17,271 nt of DNA from Candidatus Zixiibacteriota bacterium (lineage in GTDB: Bacteria; Zixibacteria; MSB-5A5; SM1-73). The stretch lies in contig JAGMBK010000019.1 of assembly GCA_023129805.1 (NCBI GenBank), forward strand, positions 1-17,271. Reading direction: 5' to 3'. Below, one piece after another: positions 3,263 through 13,450 of this stretch; position 1 is the stretch's first letter; every line of letters begins with the position of its first letter. A program made the position numbers and the translations under genes. Below the pieces are notes generated by a model, which was not told where the DNA came from, did not search any database, and saw only the letters and a program-made list of their open reading frames with translations.

Positions 3263-5476
3263 ATGCTGAAGATCACCAACAATAAACTGATTATTGGTAA
3301 AGAGGAGTATTATCCGTTTTCAGCTGAGATGCACTATTTCCGGGTTAGCAAGAGGCATTGGTCCATCTGCTTTGAGCGAATCAGGAAGGCGGGATTTAGA
3401 ATTATATCCACCCGGGTACCATGGAATCTGCATGAGCCGTTGGTAGGGGATTTTGATTTCATGGGAGTTACGGATCACACCAAAGATCTGGTGGTTTTTT
3501 TGGAGCTAGTAAGAGAATTTGGACTCAAGGTGATTCTCCATCCCGGTCCATTTATAGGTTCGGATTGGAAAAACGGAGGATACCCGGACTTCTTATATAA
3601 CAGTCCTGAGATTTTGGCAAAGGATCCCGCTGGTGAGCCGTTCAAGATATCCACCGGATCCAAATTCGGATCGGCAGGAATGGATCACACCGGGACAGAG
3701 AAAGAGGGTGTTTTTTCGGCCCTTCACCCCCGATTTTTAGCTCACGTTAAAAGATACCTGGGTGCCCTTTCAGATGTAATAAAAAACTACATCTACCCCA
3801 AAGGTCCAGTGATTTTGGTCAAGCTGGACAACGGACTTTTATCTTTCCGTCCTGAGCGATCACCCGAAAATCTAAATCCTTTCAACTCAGACTACAACGA
3901 CCATCTGATCCACTGCCTGTTTCCTGAGTATCTTAAGGGAAAATACGAAGACATCAAAAAACTGAATCAGTGCTACAGGGAGAAACACCGCGATTTCAAG
4001 GATGTAAAACTTCCCCGTGAGTTGAAGATCTCCAAGCTTCAGAATTTGATCAAGTATTTTGATTGGATTAGCTTCAAGGAAAGGATTTCAGCCGATTATG
4101 TTTCGAAGCTGAAGGAGCTATATCAATCTTTTGACGTCTCCCCTTTGTTTTCCACCGATCTTTTCTTATCCAGGGATTTCTCCTTGCCTTTCAATTGGAA
4201 GGCTTCAGAATCTGATGATCTTTTTACCGGGATAAACCTGCTTTGGCAGAATGATTATGTGGAGTTGACACGTCATCTGCGATATTTTGCCACCTGTTGT
4301 AAATTTCCCTGGTCTTCAGAATTTGCCGTAGGCTCCCAGGCAGAGTCGCCCAGAAACGCTGAAAAATATTTTCCAGTCCCTCCCAGAAAAGTTAAGCTCC
4401 TTTTGATCACCGCCTTAGCCTCGGGAATAAAAGGATTCAATCATTACATGTTCGTGGAAAGAGATCACTGGTACCATGCACCTTTAGCCAACGATGGAAC
4501 CATCCGCCCCAATTTCGATCTGATTAAAAAGTTCAATGAGTTGGCTGCCAAAATTCAACTGGAGGATCTGAAATCTTTTCCCCAGGTTGGATTGGCTAAC
4601 TACCGCCCCTATCTCTGGTTTGATTATCTCTCCTATGGATCCTCCGAAAAGGCTCCGGAGCCTTTCCCCTATCTGCCATTTTTGCTTTCCAAAACTCACA
4701 AGGGATTAAGTCAGGATTTGATCAACCTGAAGCTTGGCTATGGAATTCCAGATCTCTGGTTTGAAGAAAGCCTCCGGGAGTTCCCGGTTCTTATGGTGCC
4801 TTGTGCCGAATTCATGGATGCAGAGACTCAAAAGCTTCTGATAAACTTAGCCAGAGCCGGAAAAACCTTGATCCTGTTTGGCGTTCTGCCCCGACTTGAC
4901 CTGAATATGAGACAGTGTAGGCTTCTCTCTGATTCTTTAAAACTGCAGACCAAGGTTCAATCCTTTGTAGGTAAGGTGCAAGCCTCTGATCAGGAATTCA
5001 TCTCTTTTCTTTATGGATACATAAGGGGAGCCAAGAAGTCTCAAGTTCTGGCAAAATACCAGGACCGACCAGTGGGGATAGTTTCAAAATTGGGCAAAGG
5101 GCGTGTTTTTGTTCTCACCTTCGATATCTCCGCTCAACTTTTTCACCACAAACTTTCCTTTTTAGAAGAGGTGTTTGCCCGGGCAGGCGTCCAGAGCCAG
5201 ATATATTGTGATGCTCCCCAGGTAGACCTAATATTACAAAAAAATGAAAAACACAATATTCTCTATCTAATCAATTCCTCCCCAAATGAGAAAGACCAAA
5301 GAAGGTTAATACTCCGATTTAATCCTCGCAAGTTGGGGATAAAGGGAAAAAAACTGCGTTTGATCGATCTTCTGGGAGATGAGGTGATAAAGACCTCACC
5401 AGAGGAGCTCAAAACCGGAGTGATCATCGAGGTTGCCCCTCAAGATAGCAGAATGTATTTAATACAAGCAAGATAG
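3263..5476 (+). CDS. GH35-type glycoside hydrolase, acid/base glutamate replaced
   Basis: This 737-residue protein has the GH35 (beta-galactosidase / exo-glucosaminidase type) layout. The TIM-barrel start is FSAEMHYFRVSKRHW and RVPWNLHEP (residues 19-59), followed by HPGPFIGSDWKNGGYP. The ILVKLDNGLLSF stretch (184-195) aligns with the family pattern ILVQ-(V/L)-(E/D)-NE. The presumed nucleophile region is PWSSEFAVG (E353), and NHYMF...YHAPLANDG lies at 393-412. The glutamate normally acting as general acid/base corresponds to G191 (codon GGA, one base from GAA). There is no signal peptide, so it is probably cytoplasmic. C-terminal beta domains run from about 470. An AAGGAG ribosome site precedes the ATG. 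Fold assignment is good; substrate unknown, and normal hydrolysis is doubtful unless another residue substitutes. Confidence 0.8.
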   Translation: MLKITNNKLIIGKEEYYPFSAEMHYFRVSKRHWSICFERIRKAGFRIISTRVPWNLHEPLVGDFDFMGVTDHTKDLVVFLELVREFGLKVILHPGPFIGSDWKNGGYPDFLYNSPEILAKDPAGEPFKISTGSKFGSAGMDHTGTEKEGVFSALHPRFLAHVKRYLGALSDVIKNYIYPKGPVILVKLDNGLLSFRPERSPENLNPFNSDYNDHLIHCLFPEYLKGKYEDIKKLNQCYREKHRDFKDVKLPRELKISKLQNLIKYFDWISFKERISADYVSKLKELYQSFDVSPLFSTDLFLSRDFSLPFNWKASESDDLFTGINLLWQNDYVELTRHLRYFATCCKFPWSSEFAVGSQAESPRNAEKYFPVPPRKVKLLLITALASGIKGFNHYMFVERDHWYHAPLANDGTIRPNFDLIKKFNELAAKIQLEDLKSFPQVGLANYRPYLWFDYLSYGSSEKAPEPFPYLPFLLSKTHKGLSQDLINLKLGYGIPDLWFEESLREFPVLMVPCAEFMDAETQKLLINLARAGKTLILFGVLPRLDLNMRQCRLLSDSLKLQTKVQSFVGKVQASDQEFISFLYGYIRGAKKSQVLAKYQDRPVGIVSKLGKGRVFVLTFDISAQLFHHKLSFLEEVFARAGVQSQIYCDAPQVDLILQKNEKHNILYLINSSPNEKDQRRLILRFNPRKLGIKGKKLRLIDLLGDEVIKTSPEELKTGVIIEVAPQDSRMYLIQAR

Positions 5477-5740
5477 AAGATTCTCGCTTCACCAGAAAAA
5501 ATTAAAGCTCAGAAAACAGCAATTTTTTCCTTTGCTCTCGCGGGGATGTTATCCCAGGCGGGTCTCCCTCATCCCATGGCATCAGGTTGAAAATCCCGCC
5601 AAAGGTGTGAACCGCATGGTTCACACCAAAGGCGGGGATGGATGATAACATCCATCCAGGAGGGAGAGCGGGTTGCATGTCCGCCTAAGGCGGATCTGCC
5701 TATGGCAGAAATGCGACCCCTACAGACATCCCTTCTCCTT
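5477..5740. repeat. Palindrome-rich gene-free region
   Basis: Three perfect inverted repeats follow the glycosidase gene. A nested hairpin at 5595-5636 has arms CCCGCC/GGCGGG outside and GGTGTGAACC/GGTTCACACC inside. GGATGGATG/CATCCATCC occupies 5636-5657 with a 4-base loop, and TCCGCC-TAA-GGCGGA is at 5680-5694. Open frames here are translations of the repeats. No gene is supported. Confidence 0.6.
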
Positions 5741-5834
5741 TTGTGCCCGCCAGGTTCGTCCCGCAAAATGCGGGACGCATCCCTGACCTGGTCCCGCATT
5801 TTGCGGGATCGCGTTTGGGGACCCGACAGGCACA
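5741..5834. repeat. 94-bp nested palindromic repeat, copy a
   Basis: This copy matches 8190-8283 at 89 of 94 positions. Its core is an 18-bp inverted repeat (5759-5776 and 5791-5808), and each arm is itself a hairpin (TCCCGCA/TGCGGGA). GTGCC at 5743-5747 and GGCAC at 5829-5833 close the outside. It is non-coding and could be a MITE-like or REP-like element. No target-site duplication was recognised. Confidence 0.7.
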
Positions 5835-6016
5835 GAAATTGTAGGGGCTCGATTCATGGAACCATCCTGAGCGAAGCCGAAGGATCGAGCCCGCGGCTGC
5901 CAAAGCCCCGCCAAAGGCAACGGGTGGACACATCCCGCCACAGGCGGGGTCGCATAAATGGGACGCCCACGGATACCCCTTATCCAAATCAGACATCACC
6001 AATCAGGAAAGCAACT
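5835..6016. repeat. Degenerate repeat remnants before the first cassette leader
   Basis: This stretch contains the CCCGCC-ACA-GGCGGG palindrome (5934-5948), a CCTGAGCGAAGCCGAAGGATC boilerplate-type segment near 5868-5888, and GC-rich spacer DNA. No gene is supported. Confidence 0.45.
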
Positions 6017-6121
6017 TAGAAAGTGGTTGACAAGGTTGCATGAATGGTTATAATGTGTAATATGAATAGAAAGGCAGACAAAGGTTCTTATGCGGAAACC
6101 ATATAATCAATAGTTAGGCGG
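6017..6121 (+). promoter_or_regulatory. Promoter-leader module, copy 1, ending in a GTTAGGC core site
   Basis: TTGACA (6027-6032), 16 bp, TATAAT (6049-6054) form a near-ideal promoter. The module continues through AAGGCAGACAAAGG and AGGTTCTTATGCGGAAA (6082-6098) to AATAGTTAGGCGG (6109-6121). Most of it recurs at 8676-8780, and the 17-bp segment recurs exactly at 10594-10610. GTTAGGC (6113-6119) is the attC R'-type heptamer, but no matching left half is visible upstream. The position of a promoter ahead of a recombination-like boundary is reminiscent of attI/Pc; that comparison is inference. Confidence 0.6.
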
Positions 6122-6163
6122 GAACTTGAGTTTACGTGCAGCGATTTCTCCTGAGGTGATCTT

Positions 6164-6688
6164 ATGTTTGAGAGCCTTATCTTCGTTGTTGCCAATGTAT
6201 GGATCGTCTATGTATCGTGGCCTTCATTCCGCGACATCCGTTCTCATGGTTTCTATCGCTTCTTTGCGTTCGAGGCTGTCCTGGTTTTATTTCTATTGAA
6301 CATGCGCTACTGGTTTAATGCACCCTTCGCTATTCATCAAATTGCTTCCTGGTTCTTCTTGCTCTGCTCTCTTTTCCTTGTGATACATGGCTTCTATTTG
6401 CTCCGATTGATAGGCAAACCGAGGCGAGACATCGAGGACACCACCGTGCTTGTGAAGCAAGGAGCCTACAAGTACATACGTCATCCTCTGTATAGCTCCC
6501 TGTTCTTGGGGTGCTGGGGTGTGTTTTTTAAGCAACCCTCGCCAATTGGGGCGATACTGGGAGTGCTCGCGTCGATGGCAACAGTAGCAACTGCCAGGGT
6601 GGAAGAGCGGGAAAACCTTGAAAAGTTTGGCGATGAATATTCGGAGTATATGAGGTCAACCAAGATGCTCATACCATTCCTGTTCTAA
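6164..6688 (+). CDS. ICMT-like membrane methyltransferase (isoprenylcysteine carboxyl methyltransferase family)
   Basis: This 174-residue integral membrane protein belongs to the bacterial ICMT/phospholipid-methyltransferase-like superfamily, which uses S-adenosylmethionine to methylate lipophilic or small substrates at the membrane. Hydrophobic helices lie at about 3-18, 33-50, 60-83 and 110-143. The family signature is present: VKQGAYKYIRHPLYSS (97-112) with RHP at 106-108, then RVEERENLEKFGDEYSEYM (145-163) with the conserved E147/E148 and the Y-x-x-Y near the end. A GAGGTGAT ribosome site sits just before the ATG. The gene lies between a GTTAGGC core at 6113 and an attC-like site that starts 9 bp after its stop, which is how an integron cassette is built. 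The natural substrate cannot be read from the sequence. Confidence 0.85.
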   Translation: MFESLIFVVANVWIVYVSWPSFRDIRSHGFYRFFAFEAVLVLFLLNMRYWFNAPFAIHQIASWFFLLCSLFLVIHGFYLLRLIGKPRRDIEDTTVLVKQGAYKYIRHPLYSSLFLGCWGVFFKQPSPIGAILGVLASMATVATARVEERENLEKFGDEYSEYMRSTKMLIPFLF

Positions 6689-6696
6689 GATGCGCC

Positions 6697-6757
6697 GCCT
6701 AACAACTCGCTGGAGCGGACCCCGCAGTTGCGGGGCCGGTGATGTATCTCGTTAGGC
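6697..6757 (+). other. attC-like recombination site (cassette 1)
   Basis: GCCTAAC (6697-6703) and GTTAGGC (6751-6757) are perfectly complementary 7-bp ends of a 61-bp element. Its left part, AACTCGCTGGAGCGGAC, closely resembles known attC left halves. The centre is a stem CCCCGC/GCGGGG closed by GG/CC with one unpaired A, like the extrahelical base of attC. The inner L box pairing is weak. Size, orientation and position just after a stop codon all fit an integron cassette. Confidence 0.7.
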
Positions 6758-6856
6758 ATAGGAGGCATTATATCATCGGAATTTACGCGAATTCAGAAGC
6801 TCTTCAGGAATCTATGCAAACAGAGGAGTTGTGGTTTCCCTAAACCGTTTCAGAAA

Positions 6857-7147
6857 TTGCAGGCATCAAAAAGGCAAGGCGTCTATGTCATTATGAATCG
6901 CAATGATAGGGTTGTGCATGTTGGCAGAACTCGTAAAGCAAAAGATGGAATACATCAACGCCTCAAGAATCATCTTTACGGTCGTTCATCATTTGCAGAT
7001 CATTGCCTTTCCGGTAAAGGAAGCAAGCTACGAAGAGGTTATAAGTATAGGTACTTAGAAGTAGAAAATGGAAGAGAAAGAGCATTATTGGAATCTTATG
7101 CCATAGGACATCTCTGTCCGTTGCATCTAGGTTTGGGTGAAGAATGA
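6857..7147 (+). CDS. GIY-YIG domain protein, start uncertain
   Basis: This is a small GIY-YIG nuclease-fold protein. With the TTG at 6857 it is 96 residues. It shows QGVYVI (GIY strand, 7-12), HVGRT (YIG strand, 21-25), a following Arg/Lys helix (GIHQRLKNHL), and the conserved late glutamate E79 in RALLESYAIGHLCP. The family cuts DNA in repair, restriction or homing enzymes, although many small members are uncharacterised. The frame stays open upstream to 6743 with plausible protein sequence (SEFTRIQKLFRNLCKQ, then GFPKPFQKL) but no ATG, GTG or TTG before 6857. A strong AGGAGG (6760-6765) lies just before in-frame ATT (6767) and ATA (6770). The true protein may be about 125 residues with a non-standard start, or the start codon may have been lost. 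The gene sits between two attC-like sites. Confidence 0.7.
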   Translation: MQASKRQGVYVIMNRNDRVVHVGRTRKAKDGIHQRLKNHLYGRSSFADHCLSGKGSKLRRGYKYRYLEVENGRERALLESYAIGHLCPLHLGLGEE

Positions 7148-7159
7148 AGTTAGCTTTAT

Positions 7160-7197
7160 GCCTAATCCCGCGCTGCAGCCGAGCCTGATCGTTAGGC
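7160..7197 (+). other. Short degenerate attC-like site (cassette 2)
   Basis: GCCTAAT (7160-7166) and GTTAGGC (7191-7197) match at six of seven paired positions and lie 12 bp after the GIY-YIG stop. At 38 bp it is shorter than normal attC sites (about 55 bp or more), so it may be truncated. Its position between two small genes supports the cassette reading. Confidence 0.45.
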
Positions 7198-7233
7198 GTG
7201 AATAATTAATCAATAAGCACAAGGAGGTTGGTG

Positions 7234-7428
7234 ATGAACACCAAAACATTTTGGATTTTTGGGGTACTTCAAAGTCTCTCATTAGGAACAATAATATTCC
7301 TATTGTTCAGGTCGTTGAATCTAATCAAGGGAGAAAGCGTTATTGGTTTGGATACTCAAATCTGGTTGAGTATTGCTTTCCCGTTATTTCTCTTGCTTGT
7401 TGAATATGTCGTTTTTTCAAAAAAATGA
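7234..7428 (+). CDS. Small two-helix membrane protein, unknown
   Basis: This 64-residue protein starts at ATG 7234, six bases after a perfect AAGGAGG (7221-7227). In-frame TTG and GTG codons just upstream are less likely starts. It consists of two hydrophobic segments, at about residues 6-25 (WIFGVLQSLSLGTIIFLLF) and 42-61 (WLSIAFPLFLLLVEYVVF), joined by a short polar loop, with a KK terminus. No known family is recognised. It is the first gene after the second attC-like site and is followed by a 12-bp hairpin. A role at the membrane, such as an accessory subunit, is only a guess. Confidence 0.65.
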   Translation: MNTKTFWIFGVLQSLSLGTIIFLLFRSLNLIKGESVIGLDTQIWLSIAFPLFLLLVEYVVFSKK

Positions 7429-7448
7429 CCATATTCAAAAAAAAGATT

Positions 7449-7475
7449 GTCAACCCCGCCATAGGCGGGGTTGAC
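7449..7475. repeat. Perfect 12-bp hairpin
   Basis: GTCAACCCCGCC and GGCGGGGTTGAC pair perfectly around ATA. It lies between the small membrane protein and the FAH-family gene. No T-run follows on the plus strand; an A-run lies upstream, so it could terminate minus-strand transcription. It belongs to the recurring CCCGCC-GGCGGG palindromes of this window. Confidence 0.6.
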
Positions 7476-7501
7476 CTGCAAACTTCATGTAGAATCAAAA
7501 G

Positions 7502-8140
7502 ATGGTAAAGAACGATTCAAATATCGCACGTGTTTTTTGCATCGGCCGGAATTATGTTGAACACGTACGGGAACTGTCTAACAGTGTACCTGCGAAACCG
7601 GTTGTTTTTATCAAACCAGCATCATGTCTAATCGGACCAGGGGAGGAGATTCATTTCCCCAAACATGGAAGCGAGCTTCACCACGAGGTTGAGATAGTGG
7701 TGAGGGTTGGTCGGGAGGGAAGAGTGAGGACAGAGGAGGAGGCACTCTCCTTTATCTCTTCTATTACCATTGGTCTGGATTTGACCCTTCGGGACGTACA
7801 AAAAGACTTGAAGCAAAAGGGGCTGCCGTGGGAAATTGCCAAGGCTTTTGAACAAAGCGCTCCAATAGGTGATTTCATCCCATATGATCAGTCGCTTGAT
7901 TTGAAGGATATCTCGTTTGGGTGCAAAGTCAACGGAAGCCAGAGACAGAGAGGAAACACCGGTGAGATGATATTCGGCATTGGAGAGCTGTTGGTGCACT
8001 TGAGTAAGATTTGGATGCTCCGCCCTTCAGATCTGATATACACGGGCACTCCCTCAGGAGTTGGTCCGCTCAAGATTGGGGACTGGATTGAAGTTGAAAG
8101 CGACCCAATTGGATCATTCTCGTGGAGCATTATCGAGTGA
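7502..8140 (+). CDS. Fumarylacetoacetate hydrolase (FAH) family protein
   Basis: This 212-residue protein is a compact FAH-fold enzyme, similar in size to YcgM/FAHD1-type acylpyruvases and oxaloacetate tautomerases. The family uses a divalent metal to cleave or isomerise beta-keto acids. The pattern is complete: FCIGRNYVEH (12-21), KP-containing FIKPASCLIGPG, HHEVEIVVRVGR with metal ligands E62 and E64, GLDLTLRDVQ with ligand D93, and GTPSGVGPLKIGD near the C-terminus. It is probably cytoplasmic. There is no good ribosome site before the ATG at 7502. The gene stands alone with no catabolic partners nearby, in a block of unrelated cassette-like genes. A 94-bp repeat and a stop-associated repeat follow its stop codon. 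The family is firm; the substrate is unknown. Confidence 0.9.
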   Translation: MVKNDSNIARVFCIGRNYVEHVRELSNSVPAKPVVFIKPASCLIGPGEEIHFPKHGSELHHEVEIVVRVGREGRVRTEEEALSFISSITIGLDLTLRDVQKDLKQKGLPWEIAKAFEQSAPIGDFIPYDQSLDLKDISFGCKVNGSQRQRGNTGEMIFGIGELLVHLSKIWMLRPSDLIYTGTPSGVGPLKIGDWIEVESDPIGSFSWSIIE

Positions 8141-8188
8141 GTAGTAGCTCAAGAGCCCCGTAGCCCCGACATTGTTCTGCCGAGCATT
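8138..8188 (+). repeat. Stop-associated repeat, diverged copy 0
   Basis: TGAGTAGTAG, then a GCCCCG block and CCCGACATTGTTCTGCCGAGC resemble the modules at 10499, 11150 and 11689. The repeat begins exactly at the FAH-family stop codon. Similarity is strongest in the first 25 bases. Confidence 0.4.
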
Positions 8189-8189
8189 C

Positions 8190-8283
8190 TTGTGGCCGCC
8201 AGGTTCGTCCCGCAAAATGCGGGACGCATCCCTGACCTGGTCCCGCATTTTGGGGGATCGGGTCTGGGGACCCGCCAGGCACA
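8190..8283. repeat. 94-bp nested palindromic repeat, copy b
   Basis: This is the second copy of the element at 5741-5834, with five substitutions over 94 bp. One substitution (GCGGG to GGGGG in the right arm) weakens the main stem. It is non-coding. An open frame reading through it is spurious. Confidence 0.7.
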
Positions 8284-8303
8284 CAATATCACGAACTAAG
8301 TAC

Positions 8304-8438
8304 TTAACCTATGGATACCCCAAACGCCAAAGCCAATATAGCCCAGATTATAATCGCACCGCCCATCACCAGTGCCAGTATGCCAATCACGACCCAGGTC
8401 GATCTTGAGATTCCCCAAAAGCCAGTCTGTTTTTCCAT
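8304..8438 (-). CDS. 44-residue single-helix membrane peptide
   Basis: Reading the minus strand from ATG at 8438 gives 44 codons before TAA: a short polar start MEKQTGFWGISRST, then a long hydrophobic helix (WVVIGILALVMGGAIIIWAI, about 15-34) and a small hydrophobic tail ending SIG. A perfect AAGGAGG (8444-8450) lies five bases upstream, and TATAAT is present on the same strand at 8471-8476. The strong ribosome site and coherent transmembrane composition argue for a real gene despite its size. It is the only supported minus-strand gene in the accessory block. Function is unknown. Confidence 0.6.
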   Translation of the reverse strand: MEKQTGFWGISRSTWVVIGILALVMGGAIIIWAILALAFGVSIG

Positions 8439-8460
8439 AAGATCCTCCTTACTCTGGTTT

Positions 8461-8485
8461 GACTAACTTCATTATACGGTTAGGC
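8461..8485 (+). other. Possible remnant attC-like site
   Basis: GACTAAC (8461-8467) and GTTAGGC (8479-8485) are complementary at six of seven positions, but only 25 bp in total. It is too short for a functional attC. It is listed because it is the fourth plus-strand GTTAGGC in 2.4 kb. Confidence 0.25.
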
Positions 8486-8655: not shown

Positions 8656-8675
8656 AAGAATCGGGGAAAATAATT

Positions 8676-8780
8676 TAGAAAAAGATTGACAAGGTTGCAC
8701 AAATGATTATAATTAGTATTATCAAAGGAAAGGCAGACGAAGATTCTTAAACGGAACGGTAAAAAAGTATTTAGCTGGAA
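8676..8780 (+). promoter_or_regulatory. Promoter-leader module, copy 2
   Basis: TTGACA (8686-8691), 16 bp, TATAAT (8708-8713). It shares TTGACAAGGTTGCA, AAGGCAGAC and a diverged GATTCTTA segment with copy 1 at 6017-6121. The final core reads TTTAGCTGG instead of GTTAGGCGG. It is well placed to transcribe the two-gene operon starting at 8832. Confidence 0.6.
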
Positions 8781-8831: not shown

Positions 8832-9374
8832 ATGGAAATACAACTCTTGCCCTTGCAGAGAATGGAAGAACGTCACATAGGACTGACACAAGCCATTGCC
8901 GATTGCTTTTACGAAGCTGCTTGCGTGTGTTTAGACAGACACCACGCACCACCGCAAGAATTCGATTTGCACGGGGACTCCCTTGAACAAAAGGCGCTGG
9001 TGGAGTGGAACCCAACTGTTGACCGTAGCAAAAAAGCTTGGGCAAATAAAGATGATGCAACGAGAGATGGCGCCTATGCTTTTGCTCTTGCTGCTACGGA
9101 ATTGTGTCTAGGGTTATGTGCCGTGAGCCGTGCTGAAACATCAACAGGGGCAGACTATTATATAGGACTTAGAGACCAATCGACGGATGATCTGGAGAAT
9201 TGTTTTCGACTTGAAGTATCCGGGACTGACTTAGATACCTATGAAGTAAATAGAAGATTAAGAGGCAAGGTAAAGCAAGCTTTGAAGGGCAAAAGTAATT
9301 TACCAGCCATCGCTGCTGTTGTGGGGTTTAGGGTAAAGTTAATAACAATGCAAAAAGTGTATGATGAGTCATGA
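8832..9374 (+). CDS. Unknown protein, first gene of an overlapping pair; possible PD-(D/E)XK-like fold
   Basis: This 180-residue protein starts at ATG 8832, eight bases after GAGGGG. I do not recognise a named family. It is soluble: an N-terminal helical part (1-35), a central alanine-rich helix (TRDGAYAFALAATELCLG, 77-94), then TGADYYIG (105-112) and RLEVSG (126-131), each predicted as beta strands, and a basic helical stretch (RRLRGKVKQALKGK, 141-154) before a final strand. A strand carrying D108 followed about 20 residues later by a strand carrying E128 recalls PD-(D/E)XK nucleases, but the usual lysine of the ExK motif is a serine (EVS), so this is weak. Six cysteines occur without a zinc-finger pattern. 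The last four bases overlap the next start (ATGA), implying translational coupling. A strong promoter lies 120 bp upstream. Confidence 0.8.
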   Translation: MEIQLLPLQRMEERHIGLTQAIADCFYEAACVCLDRHHAPPQEFDLHGDSLEQKALVEWNPTVDRSKKAWANKDDATRDGAYAFALAATELCLGLCAVSRAETSTGADYYIGLRDQSTDDLENCFRLEVSGTDLDTYEVNRRLRGKVKQALKGKSNLPAIAAVVGFRVKLITMQKVYDES

Positions 9375-10501
9375 ATTGGACGAAATATCATTCTGAGAGC
9401 GAGAAATTAGCTAGTCAGGCTGAAGCTGCTCTTAAGGATGGCAAATTAGAAGAAGCTGAAAGATTATACCAACTTGCTGCTGATGCAGAGGCTCGCGCTC
9501 TGTCTGTGCTAGACCAAACGAAGAAAAGAACCTTTGGCATCACTGCTGTCAGTGCAGCATCACTCTACTTTAAAGGAAAAGATTTTGGGAACGCGGAGCA
9601 AACTGCATATAAATACCTTGCAACCAATAAACTACCTTCATTCGCTGCAGAACAACTTCAGTCTATTTTGCAAAGCATATGGAATGAAAAAATCTTTCAA
9701 AGGGCTGGCATCGAATTCGTAAAAGGTGCTGTATTAGTTTCTGTCAGTGGGGGATTGGTTGTTCCTGGAGGAGCCCCACTGGATCTCATTCATCGTAAGG
9801 TTGATGAAGTTAAAAACATTTTCTACCGAATCATAGAAATGCTTTTGAATTGTCCATTCCGGAGGCGAGGTCTCCCCAGTTCTGAGATTCAGGATCAATT
9901 TCGTCCTTGGCTTTTCCAGACTGACCGAGGAAGCTACCGGTTTGCAGTCAGAGTCCAAAAGCCTTCCCAAACATCTCTTCTTCCAGATCGCACTCCAGAA
10001 ATCGAGGATGTCACTCAAAAGTTTTTTGAAGTGGTTGAAGCCTCAGCACAGGATACCCATGAAAAATTGGAGGAAATTGTTCCTAATTCTGAGTACCGTG
10101 AATCATTTTTAAAAATAACACGCAACTTGGCTCCTACTGGCAAGTCCTTTGAAAGGCTTGAGATAAAATCTGCAACAGATATAGAGGCAGCTCCTATAGT
10201 TTTCTTGCCCGAGTCTCGCGAAGCTATAAATAAGACGTTACGCGCCTCTAAAAAGAAAACTGAGGAAGAGTCTGAGCTTAAAGAAGAACAATTATCAGGC
10301 ATTCTGCGTAATCTTTCTTTAGATAAAGATTGGATTGAAATACATACCCCAGAGAAGGATCACAGAACAATAAGGATCTCTCAAACTGGAGACATGATTG
10401 ACGATATAGTAGGACCAATGGTTAATCAAAGGGTACTGGTAGATGTTTTTGTAAAACCCGATGGGACATATCTTTTCCGTGATATTCAATCTGAGGAATA
10501 G
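9371..10501 (+). CDS. Unknown protein with N-terminal TPR-like helices, second gene of the pair
   Basis: This 376-residue protein overlaps the upstream gene by 4 bp. The first ~105 residues look like tetratricopeptide-type helix pairs: ASQAEAALKDGKLEEAERLY (15-34), then AVSAASLYFKGKDFGNAEQT (59-78) and AAEQLQSILQSIW (92-104). Next come beta-rich pieces, GIEFVKGAVLVSVSGG (113-128) and GSYRFAVRVQKP (187-198). A charged acidic/basic region follows near 290-310 (SKKKTEEESELKEEQLSG). The C-terminal ~60 residues read as a small beta domain (IRISQTGDMIDDIV, then VLVDVFVKPDGTYLFRDIQ). There are no membrane segments or enzyme motifs I can name. It may act as an interaction or sensor partner of the 180-residue protein. 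The stop codon coincides with the start of the repeat at 10499. Confidence 0.8.
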   Translation: MNWTKYHSESEKLASQAEAALKDGKLEEAERLYQLAADAEARALSVLDQTKKRTFGITAVSAASLYFKGKDFGNAEQTAYKYLATNKLPSFAAEQLQSILQSIWNEKIFQRAGIEFVKGAVLVSVSGGLVVPGGAPLDLIHRKVDEVKNIFYRIIEMLLNCPFRRRGLPSSEIQDQFRPWLFQTDRGSYRFAVRVQKPSQTSLLPDRTPEIEDVTQKFFEVVEASAQDTHEKLEEIVPNSEYRESFLKITRNLAPTGKSFERLEIKSATDIEAAPIVFLPESREAINKTLRASKKKTEEESELKEEQLSGILRNLSLDKDWIEIHTPEKDHRTIRISQTGDMIDDIVGPMVNQRVLVDVFVKPDGTYLFRDIQSEE

Positions 10502-10560
10502 TAGTAGGCCAGGCGCCCCGTGCTCCTGACACTATTCATCTGTCAGGTGCGTAGGGCACG
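10499..10560 (+). repeat. Stop-associated repeat module, copy 1
   Basis: The module begins with the stop codon of the upstream gene (TAGTAGTAGGCC). It contains CCTGACA (10525-10531) and TGTCAGG (10541-10547) as a perfect 7-bp stem, closed outside by CGTGC (10519-10523) and GCACG (10556-10560). Close relatives lie at 11150-11275 and 11689-11837. DNA at 10561-10593 is unremarkable. Confidence 0.6.
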
Positions 10561-10593
10561 TAGCTAACACGGCTGGGGTCACAAGGTAGGGAG

Positions 10594-10632
10594 AGGTTCT
10601 TATGCGGAAATCACACGTTCAATAGTCAGGTG
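10594..10632 (+). repeat. Leader module, copy 3 (promoter part missing)
   Basis: AGGTTCTTATGCGGAAA (10594-10610) is identical to 6082-6098. TCAATAGTCAGGTGG (10619-10632 and onward) parallels TCAATAGTTAGGCGG of copy 1. The TTGACA/TATAAT part of the other copies is not present here. Confidence 0.55.
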
Positions 10633-11136
10633 GAAAAAATGGATGAATTTATTAAAAAAATCATTCTGAGAAGAACTATTCAAGCGGCATTTCAAAGAGG
10701 AAAAGTCTATCCAGATGGTTTGAGCCAAAAAGCAAGAGACGAACTTAAGAATAGCATTAAGGAGGAACTAGTAAGAATATCTGGTAAGTATGTCAACGAA
10801 GTCTCTGAGGAAAAACACTTAAAGAACATAGAAGTTCTTTCACAAACAATTATCAGAAAGCATAAAAGGAAGTTGAAAAATGGTCGTTTGAGAATCGGCA
10901 CTGCGCAGAAATTATTAAACGTCTTTATTAAATTTCTTTGGTGCTTGGGTGAGGCAAAAGAACCAGAACACTGTCCCATTGATCGAATAGTGTTAACAGA
11001 AATCAAATCTGATCATAAATGGACCGATTTACAATCAATTGACGAATATAAAGAAGTCATATCTGAAATTCGCATGCACATAGACAATGAATCAGTGGCC
11101 CGATGGGAATGGAAACTATGGAATAGAAAGGCCTAA
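10630..11136 (+). CDS. Unknown small basic protein, cassette-like
   Basis: This protein has 168 residues from GTG 10630, or 165 from ATG 10639; neither start has a strong ribosome site. No named family is recognised. It appears soluble and helical: an amphipathic N-terminus (MDEFIKKIILRRTIQAAF), a lysine-rich middle (HLKNIEVLSQTIIRKHKRKL), then the most distinctive part, GRLRIGTAQKLLNVFIKFLW (85-104), followed by CLGEAKEPEHCPIDRI (105-120). C105 and the H114-C115 pair are the only obvious metal or redox candidates. The gene directly follows leader copy 3, and its stop codon lies inside a GCCTAAC heptamer (11131-11137), the left core of attC-type sites. Codon and base composition are AT-rich compared with the next gene, suggesting separate origins. 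Confidence 0.75.
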   Translation: MEKMDEFIKKIILRRTIQAAFQRGKVYPDGLSQKARDELKNSIKEELVRISGKYVNEVSEEKHLKNIEVLSQTIIRKHKRKLKNGRLRIGTAQKLLNVFIKFLWCLGEAKEPEHCPIDRIVLTEIKSDHKWTDLQSIDEYKEVISEIRMHIDNESVARWEWKLWNRKA

Positions 11137-11162
11137 CAGCTTAGCCAAGTCGTAGATTAGGG
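11131..11162 (+). other. Possible degenerate attC-like site
   Basis: GCCTAAC (11131-11137) overlaps the stop codon. A partial right-hand match, ATTAGGG, lies at 11156-11162. With a 32-bp span and a mismatched right core it would not be functional, but the position after a small gene fits the series. Confidence 0.25.
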
Positions 11163-11275
11163 GACCCGTGCTCCTGACACTATTCATTTGTCAGGTGCGC
11201 AGGGCACCTGGCTTATGAAGTGTCAGGTCACTCCCGCCAAGGCGGGCAAGACCTGACAGAGCTAGAAAAGAGGAA
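11150..11275 (+). repeat. Stop-associated repeat module, copy 2
   Basis: It contains CCTGACA/TGTCAGG (11173-11179, 11189-11195) and GGGCACCTGG. A second cruciform has outer arms TGTCAGGTC (11221-11229) and GACCTGACA (11250-11258), enclosing CCCGCC-AA-GGCGGG (11233-11246). It shares about 125 bp with copy 3 and runs up to the ribosome-site region of the next gene. Confidence 0.65.
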
Positions 11276-11295: not shown

Positions 11296-11691
11296 ATGGA
11301 CTTGACAACCGCCGCAGTCAAGTTGGCGCTGGACTCGCTCAAAAGTGCCATCAAATCATTTGGGTCCAGGGTGTCTCGGCGTAGGCAAAGAGAGCTCACG
11401 TCTACCGCCATCATGGAGCTTCTTAAGCTAGACCCCAACATGGACGCAGTGGATGCCGCCATTGCTGCGGCCGAGGCAACGGGTGTAAACCCGAGCCCGG
11501 ACCTCTTCCGGGCAAAACGTATGCGGGATGGGCTCGTTAAGCGCGCCAAGACAACCGTGATCATGCGGGGCCCGAAGATCAAGGTCACAAAAAAGAGAGC
11601 CTTCGCGAAGAAAGGAACCCGGAGGATCCCCGCGAAGTCCAAGCGTGCGGGGAAGAAGACAACCAAGAAGGGTAGAAAGGCCAAGCGGTAG
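11296..11691 (+). CDS. Small protein with histone-H1-like basic tail
   Basis: This 131-residue protein has two parts. Residues 1-75 form a helical, alanine-rich region (TTAAVKLALDSLKSAIKSFG, then AVDAAIAAAEATGVNPSPDL). From about residue 92, 20 of the last 40 residues are Lys or Arg with Ala, Gly, Thr and Pro, as in histone H1 C-terminal domains and bacterial H1-like proteins. Such tails usually bind DNA or RNA non-specifically. There are no enzyme motifs. A weak GGGAAG ribosome site precedes the ATG. The gene is clearly more GC-rich than its AT-rich left neighbour, and both sides are flanked by copies of the same repeat module, suggesting it arrived as a unit. A role in nucleic-acid binding is inference from composition. 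Confidence 0.65.
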   Translation: MDLTTAAVKLALDSLKSAIKSFGSRVSRRRQRELTSTAIMELLKLDPNMDAVDAAIAAAEATGVNPSPDLFRAKRMRDGLVKRAKTTVIMRGPKIKVTKKRAFAKKGTRRIPAKSKRAGKKTTKKGRKAKR

Positions 11692-11837
11692 TAGTAGGTC
11701 ACGAGCCTCGTGCTCCTGACACCATTCATTTGTCAGGTGCTCGGACGAGTCCGTCTGGGCGCAGGGCACCTGACCAACGAGGTCGTCAGGTCACACCCGC
11801 CAAGGCGGGCAAGACTTGATAGAACTAAGAAAGGAGG
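11689..11837 (+). repeat. Stop-associated repeat module, copy 3, with 20-bp insertion
   Basis: It starts at the stop codon (TAGTAGTAGGTC). It holds CCTGACA/TGTCAGG (11715-11721, 11731-11737), a 20-bp insert with a CGGAC-GA-GTCCG hairpin (11741-11760), GCACCTGAC (11766-11774), GTCAGGTC (11785-11792) and CCCGCC-AA-GGCGGG (11796-11809). It ends in AAGGAGG (11831-11837), so the repeat supplies the ribosome site of the next gene. Several pairings are mutually exclusive. Confidence 0.65.
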
Positions 11838-12449: not shown

Positions 12450-12883
12450 GTTGTAGCCGCCCGTACGGGCGCAAGTTGTTGGTCTTCAATATCTCAATCT
12501 CGCAGACTCTGCGCCGTAAGCGCATCCTCCTTCGGCGGAAAGTCTGCGGCTACAAAAACTGAATCCATCCGGTTCGGGGGGGGCTTGTCCTGAAGGCTTG
12601 ATATGAAGGATTGGACCTCCGCCCAAAAGGCAATCTCACCACAGTTTTGATGCTGATCCGGATACCCCCCCTGTTATTAAGTTGTAGCCGCAATCTTCAG
12701 ATTGCGTGGGTTGTCGGTCTTTAATATTTCAATCTCGCACCCCTAAGGGTGCGCCTACAAAAACTGAATCCATCCGGTTCGGGGGGGGCTTGTCCTGAAG
12801 GCTTGATATGAAGGATTGGACCTCCGCCCAAAAGGCAATCTCACCACAGTTTTGATGCTGATCCGGATACCCCCCCTGTTATT
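12450..12883. repeat. Two-unit tandem repeat with exact 129-bp direct duplication
   Basis: Unit 1 (12450-12680) and unit 2 (12681-12883) each open with TTGTAGCCGC and later carry its complement (GCGGCTACAA at 12546-12555; one mismatch at 12751-12760). Different hairpins lie between those arms: GCCCGTACGGGC in unit 1; CGCAATCT-TC-AGATTGCG and CGCACCC-CTA-AGGGTGCG in unit 2. The remaining 129 bp, 12550-12678 and 12755-12883, appear identical. No gene is supported. Confidence 0.8.
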
Positions 12884-13450
12884 GAGGAGAGTTATATGAG
12901 AGGAAAGAACGTTCATATTCAAAGAATCAAATTTCTTCGATCCCCTCTCTCACCGTTATCAACCTATGGATGGATATGCCTATCCCTCTCGGTAAAAAGG
13001 GGATAAAGGTGAGCACATGATTACAGATGATGAAAATTTTTCAAAATGAACATCAGAAAGCCCAGAAAGCCCAGAAAGCCCAGAAAGCCCGGTGCCGACG
13101 TCGAAACATCCTGTTGGGGTGGAAAGGATTACACCCCCGTCCCTTTCTGGCGCACAGATGTACAACCCCTGTCCGATCTGGCAGAAAGCCCAGAACGCCC
13201 AGTAAGCCCGGTGGACGTGTGGGAGAGTGAAGGTTTTGAGCTCACACCTGAGACTAATCTATTCACAGCAGATGAAACGGACTTGTAGTGAGCGAAGCGA
13301 ATCTATTAAGCAGATAGAAATCGCCGGTATCAGCTTAATCTGCTTAATCAGCTGTGAGGTTTCAAGCCCCTAGTCCCTAACCCCTAACCCCTGGTTCTGG
13401 GTGCCTGGGACTGGCGACTGGTGTCTGGAGTCTGGATACTGGAGTCTGGT
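12884..13450. repeat. Gene-free low-complexity region
   Basis: It holds four perfect 9-bp tandem copies of CAGAAAGCC (13054-13089) and three degenerate ones (13182-13208). A perfect 11-bp inverted repeat ATTAAGCAGAT/ATCTGCTTAAT lies at 13305-13315 and 13338-13348. A simple-sequence tail with repeated CTGGAGTCTGG and CCCTAACC follows (13370-13450). Open frames here (for example 13046-13288) have no ribosome site and encode repeat-derived sequence, so I do not call a gene. Confidence 0.6.

Follow-up and report, generated by a model that had tools for sequence, protein, structure and literature searches.

A probable relic of a reverse-oriented chromosomal integron, with promoter and attI kept and intI gone, in a metagenomic contig

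The DNA considered here (the window) is a stretch of 17,271 nucleotides, positions 1 to 17,271 of contig JAGMBK010000019.1 in assembly GCA_023129805.1. We put a probability of about 0.88 on its segment from 6006 to approximately 7430 being a relic of a reverse-oriented chromosomal integron, composed of a promoter, an attI site, two cassettes with attC sites and the start of a third cassette, from which the integrase gene intI is gone. The order promoter–attI–cassettes, the homology of the parts to loci bearing intI, the attC sites and a cassette break beside the recombination core are all observed. Set against a complete integron, the window has an attI (6081-6118, E=2.2e-13 with our attI model R1) and a cassette with attC (E=1.4e-7 with our attC model R2), and lacks an adjacent intI. 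It is a variant of the known integron kinds, with attI and promoter kept and intI lost.

An earlier note on this DNA described an integrase-less, decaying cassette array. Cassettes with attC sites and the lack of intI in the window agree with that description, but the GTTAGGC at 6113 belongs to attI and the one at 8479 is not an attC core. Neither of the two outcomes named in the note as speaking against it came about: an attC covariance model matches 6697-6757, and one ORF of the array has a breakpoint beside GTTAGGC in a related genome. Because 6113 is the core of attI, the structure represents not a plain attC cluster but an integron which has kept its attI and promoter.

Promoter, attI and cassettes of the window

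The features of the relic, all of them on the plus strand, are the following.

6027-6054, plus: promoter with TTGACA (6027-6032), a 16-bp spacer and TATAAT (6049-6054), read from the sequence and matched by a promoter hidden Markov model (HMM) at 6018-6069
6081-6119, plus: putative attI landing site ending in its core GTTAGGC (6113-6119), from model R1 and from the attI of relatives beside intact or broken intI
6114-6751, plus: cassette 1, between the attI core and the attC core, with open reading frame (ORF) 6164-6688 for a PEMT-like methyltransferase (Pfam PF04191, E=7.8e-9)
6697-6757, plus: attC of cassette 1, 61 bp (R2 E=1.4e-7 on the plus and 0.042 on the minus strand; also our own arm-pairing scan)
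6752-7191, plus: cassette 2, between the two attC cores, with ORF 6857-7147 carrying a GIY-YIG domain (PF01541, E=8.8e-5, just over the cutoff)
7160-7197, plus: truncated attC of cassette 2, which lacks its centre and retains the left arm and the outer heptamers (R2 E=6.1e-4 on the plus and 0.47 on the minus strand)
7192-7428, plus: start of cassette 3 with the 66-aa ORF 7228-7428, matched behind an attI in genome G005

The heptamer GTTAGGC has four plus-strand copies (6113, 6751, 7191, 8479) and two further ones on the minus strand (6697-6703, 11131-11137). These six occurrences compare with a mean of 1.27 (sd 1.08, maximum 5) in shuffled sequence, and none of 200 dinucleotide shuffles reached six; the excess over chance, noticed before for the four plus-strand copies, is confirmed. 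The complementary heptamers reported upstream of three copies are also there, namely GCCTAAC at 6697 for 6751 (pairing 7/7), GCCTAAT at 7160 for 7191 (6/7) and GACTAAC at 8461 for 8479 (6/7), and small unrelated genes do lie between the sites. The core at 6113 has no upstream partner, as is expected of attI; it is the attI core behind the promoter and not an attC site of a cassette.

R1 is a sequence model of 18 attI-like sites of Zixibacteria, the window's own sites being excluded; the 18 seed sites match it by construction, and the window, most sites of loci L179-L198 and the Acidobacteriota sites are independent of these seeds. The window promoter is similar to positions 8953-8986 of L042, a stretch upstream of intI, and the repeat unit which carries it ends in ATATAATCAATAGTTAGGC. 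Over 22 aligned copies, conservation reaches 98% in the -35 and 93% in the -10 hexamer, 85% in the spacer and 64% in the flanks, figures to which we give no weight because the HMM seeds were chosen by their hexamers. Positions 6006-6097 are repeated at 8665-8756 (79% identity) and 6071-6124 at 10583-10636 (78%). Comparison of the window with IntI proteins of Acidobacteriota reported no intI piece, and no remnant of the gene is left between promoter and attI. Rfam gave no match at gathering scores, and a single 27-base attI pattern had no exact counterpart in IMG/VR.

For attC we used R2, our own covariance model of the arms of 17 Acidobacteriota attC sites, run on the window with filters off. 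It confirmed the attC-like nature proposed in the earlier note for the 61-bp site 6697-6757, which begins 8 bp behind the stop of the PEMT-like gene. In the arm-pairing scan (score of at least 12.5) this was the sole site of the window, picked up on both strands, against 2 strand-hits in the 329,149 bp of loci L001-L021; R2, run with its default, faster filters, gave no match at E<=2 in 18 of these 21 loci (299,023 bp). There is no further attC in the window, the next R2 match having E=1.7. The copy at 8479 was rejected as an attC core, the pair 8461-8485 scoring E=1.7 and 1.8. Over 54 loci, R2 had 23 matches at E<=2 when the two strands are counted together, and among Zixibacteria these fell only in L198 (4), L192 (1, E=0.089) and L086 (1, E=0.23); it gave none for the sites in L045 and L081 which our scan finds.

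The cassette break concerns the 66-aa ORF 7228-7428, the only one for which a phylum-wide protein search was made. Its product has a match in one of 132 Zixibacteria genomes, G005 (E=9.1e-30, 79% identical), where it starts 34 bp behind a different attI (locus L089). At the DNA level the two loci share 82% identity along 203 bp, a stretch that starts 6 bp past GTTAGGC in the window and 4 bp past it in L089; upstream of this shared heptamer lie a truncated attC in the window and an attI in L089, in unrelated DNA. The glycosidases of the window and G005 lineages (L004) are only 52% identical. This comparison indicates that the cassette with ORF 7228-7428 once moved, and a breakpoint at GTTAGGC, which the earlier note had suggested looking for in related genomes, was found for this ORF. 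The other array ORFs of the window have no match in the set of relatives' loci with which they were compared. Elsewhere in L089 (5903-6925, minus strand), the gene that follows a decayed promoter/attI encodes a 340-aa protein with a match to PDC-S35 (E=1.5e-18), a candidate defence family.

The attI family and its integrases in relatives

The reverse orientation, in which intI is read towards the cassettes, is seen in relatives that have the same attI, the window itself being without intI. In L042 (genome G002), the promoter at 8953-8986 is followed by a frameshifted intI at approximately 9121-10064, split by a frameshift or by an assembly error, and by attI at 10202-10240. In L216, from Acidobacteriota, intI is intact (free of stops, with 472.7 bits across the full profile; a 360-aa frame ending at 5490), and behind it lie one repeat copy (5503-5527) and attI at 5625-5662, about 135 bp from the gene. 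Among the 38 Zixibacteria attI sites outside the window (R1 matches at E<0.01), six have an intI piece on the same strand within 600 bp upstream, in L042, L179, L187, L192 and L198; by eye, intI also ends in front of a variant attI in L044 and L045.

Acidobacteriota were intended as the negative control for R1 and did not prove negative, 14 of 131 genomes matching at E<=0.05. The regions examined come from seven of these 14 genomes: of 13 regions with attI (E<0.1), nine also contain a piece of intI, upstream and on the attI strand, which in L231 is very short, and four (L224, L226, L228, L230) have none. Three further intI regions of the genome of L216 (L221-L223) have no attI of the window family; an attI of this family does not accompany every IntI. 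From these sequence relationships, the motif is the attI of one type of reverse-oriented integron, which occurs in no fewer than two phyla, Zixibacteria and Acidobacteriota.

IntI itself scored above the cutoff in one of 132 Zixibacteria genomes (a frameshifted gene) versus 100 of 347 from Acidobacteriota. R1 matched 33 of the 132 Zixibacteria genomes at E<=0.05, with 26 sites in 13 genomes at E<1e-4, some of them being R1 seeds. In another search of the 132 genomes, matches at E<=1 in 58 genomes were mostly noise, and nine genomes had E<1e-5. A same-strand ORF of at least 50 aa starts within 160 bp of attI at all 37 sites tested (36 of relatives and the window's own; E<=0.01, with at least 300 bp of contig remaining), compared with 1928 of 3000 random positions and 19 on the other side of the sites. 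Relatives of the L042 integrase listed besides the query are 78-85% identical to it, and Sedimentisphaerales and Aminicenantes are among the few source names given.

Several attI modules stand in series on one strand in L084, L089, L179, L193 (where the second site is weak), L216 and L227. In L216 (917-5662) and L227 (8837-12585), both from Acidobacteriota, units of intI and attI follow one another in tandem on a single strand; most of these intI are truncated at the 5' end, and the last one of L216 is the intact gene. At 2700-3460 of L198, as seen by eye, a left attC half runs straight into a truncated intI, which attI follows; this junction suggests a deletion between attC and intI as one route of intI loss.

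Origin of the relic, alternatives and known systems

Under the reading as an integron relic, an integrase would once have captured cassettes at G^TTAGGC (6113), and intI would later have been deleted between promoter and attI. The former intI promoter would now read straight into the cassettes and presumably express them, and these would no longer move except through an integrase acting in trans. No intI stub is present, and copying of a promoter–attI piece is an alternative to the proposed deletion. Further points weigh against this reading. No intI piece lies within 600 bp of 32 of the 38 non-window attI sites, and only eight of the 38 have a promoter within 300 bp upstream. Behind the attI of Zixibacteria, attC is scarce, with 2 matches in 155 kb downstream against 1 in 149 kb upstream and 4 in 658 kb of background strands. 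The attachment of cassette 3 is supported for its ORF and not beyond it, and intI may survive elsewhere in the genome, the evidence coming from one contig.

The numerous attI sites without a nearby intI piece, together with the scattering of the copies, would also suit a dispersed, promoter-carrying repeat which merely resembles attI, the genes behind it being ordinary island genes. The motif, though, keeps the same position behind intI in two phyla, and in one instance that intI is intact; two attC sites follow it in the window, and a shared cassette gene stands behind two different copies or sites, so that we hold this explanation to be quite improbable. Somewhat less so, and still improbable, is a cassette cluster formed by off-target insertion through a trans-acting integrase where no local integron was ever present. 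Such a route is proposed for integrase-less cassette clusters in the available part of PMC8618304, and integrases related to that of L042 are abundant (7862 of 7998 scored candidates at E<=1e-60); against it, a good attI and a promoter like the one preceding the L042 intI are both present. Loss of intI by repeat collapse during assembly is scarcely credible: the window is indeed a single metagenomic contig with repeats of 94-99% identity, but many separate assemblies have attI sites without integrase in the interior of a contig, and there are intI remnants that differ in length.

A wider and speculative proposal, which we consider unlikely, is that attI modules stripped of intI serve as non-autonomous platforms, in tandem and genome-wide, some of them with a promoter, on which integrases of the community act in trans; captured genes would then gain a landing site together with a promoter. 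In tandem arrays, a unit may have the attI of the next one as its 3' recombination site, a possibility allowed by the order attC–intI–attI–gene–attC in L216 and by the tandem units of L216 and L227.

Among the closest known systems are the chromosomal integrons of Treponema, for which the available text of PMC3607928 describes a reverse orientation, with intI read towards attI in the direction of the cassettes, and a case, T. phagedenis, in which attC is kept and intI seemingly lost. The second trait recurs in the window, and the orientation in relatives with the same attI. The differences are that Treponema belongs to another phylum and that the window keeps attI and promoter without intI and has several attI copies; the same text assumes one attI per integron. 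With clusters of attC sites lacking an integrase (CALINs), as outlined in the accessible parts of PMC9024848 and PMC8618304, the window shares attC cassettes without a local intI, and it differs from them by its attI and promoter, by having only two attC sites and by tandem, decayed attI copies. By default, IntegronFinder 2 calls a CALIN from at least two attC sites with no intI nearby (PMC9024848, in part); the window gives two R2 matches, one of only 38 bp, R2 being our own model.

According to the same source, IntegronFinder does not detect attI sites other than those of class 1, of which few good descriptions exist outside that class (PMC9024848). The list of phyla in the available part of a 2021 review does not include Zixibacteria (PMC8618304), and our search of the open-access literature by title and abstract start found no work on integrons of Zixibacteria/Zixiibacteriota. 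A search of the same literature for multiple attI sites or attI sites without intI gave only archaeal integron work, in the available part of which attI lies downstream of intI and most archaeal finds are called CALINs. Surveys rely on integrase and attC, so that the attI family, used as a probe, reveals integron relics which they would miss. With it, one can test what happens to an integron after integrase loss and whether cassettes are still captured at orphan attI sites.

Right-hand block, repeat D and genomic setting

The block to the right of the cassettes contains the following features.

8461-8485, minus: pair GACTAAC/GTTAGGC, not attC; possibly a very decayed inverted attI (R1 on the minus strand, 8481-8468, E=1, not significant)
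8665-8756, plus: second promoter (TTGACA 8686-8691, TATAAT 8708-8713) with a decayed attI; 79% identical to 6006-6097 and matched by the promoter HMM, the attI part reaching only E=2 with R1
8832-10501, plus: two overlapping ORFs of 180 and 376 aa behind the second promoter
10497-10572, plus: palindromic repeat D, copy 1
10594-10631, plus: third attI, decayed and without promoter, core GTCAGGT; 78% identical to 6071-6124 (R1 10594-10626, E=9.5e-4)
10630-11136, plus: ORF of 168 aa behind the third attI, with no Pfam family
11148-11221, plus: palindromic repeat D, copy 2
11689-11782, plus: palindromic repeat D, copy 3

From the two decayed attI copies (8665 and 10594) it would seem that a number of such platforms once stood in tandem. 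They bear out only in part the earlier idea that the array reaches to approximately 12.36 kb, as no further attC at E<1.7 accompanies them. The family of the 376-aa ORF is widespread, with 1137 proteins at E<=0.001 among 7996 scored candidates, the best 88% identical. In nine window proteins, PADLOC gave nothing below E=0.003. On the minus strand, ORF 8304-8438 (44 aa, membrane-like, with a good ribosome site) lies behind a sequence weakly resembling an inverted attI.

Repeat D, located downstream of three genes in the block, is made of two hairpins in inverted orientation, whose feet read GTAG...CTAC, and stands behind gene ends. Strong copies occur in eight of 11 genomes searched, and of 23 such copies, 16 are found no more than 3.5 kb from an attI, a promoter or an intI feature, a zone making up about 1.1% of nine genomes; genome sizes are rounded and copies are not independent in this count, and its significance is not to be taken literally. 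Repeat D stands behind genes mostly in attI orientation, 35 of 41 copies being concordant and six discordant (score of at least 20, within 5 kb), with some matches of the palindrome falling on both strands. As the attC of this lineage it was rejected: it is conserved in sequence, has no GTTRRRY end and occurs outside arrays (L046). We regard it as a passenger like the repetitive extragenic palindromes (REPs) and not as a recombination site. Its build resembles that of two inverted REPs, as in bacterial interspersed mosaic elements, from which its concentration near attI distinguishes it. Elements of this kind are mobilised by a RAYT (Y1) transposase, and Y1_Tnp genes are present in all nine genomes searched.

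The host lineage is most likely Candidatus Zixiibacteriota, as judged from the 737-aa glycosidase-like protein encoded at 3263-5476, which is 79% identical to its homologue in candidate division Zixibacteria bacterium SM23_73_3 and 74% to that in another Zixiibacteriota bin. No other window gene was found at E<=1e-5 in the glycosidase loci L001-L021. On the opposite side, in the three closest relatives by macB orthologue (77%, 76% and 72%), DNA similarity ends within 5 bp of the macB end facing the array; what lies beyond differs in each, with no attI, promoter or repeat D within 1.5-4.4 kb of contig. In L045, a similar relic with a C-terminal intI piece stands between two 163-bp, 96% identical 3' ends of macB (7841-8003 and 10619-10781), as if it had been inserted with duplication of this end.

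Two direct observations on repeats concern the window itself: a 137-bp direct repeat, 98.5% identical (12545-12681 and 12750-12886), lies between array and macB, and a 97-bp repeat, 94% identical (5741-5837 and 8190-8286), flanks the cassette block. At 57-474 on the minus strand, two overlapping small ORFs resemble, by eye, a HicA/HicB toxin–antitoxin pair. Behind the variant attI of L044 (approximately 5830-8420, minus strand), a small peptide ORF is followed by two ORFs that look radical SAM-like by eye, possibly a peptide-modifying cluster in cassette position.

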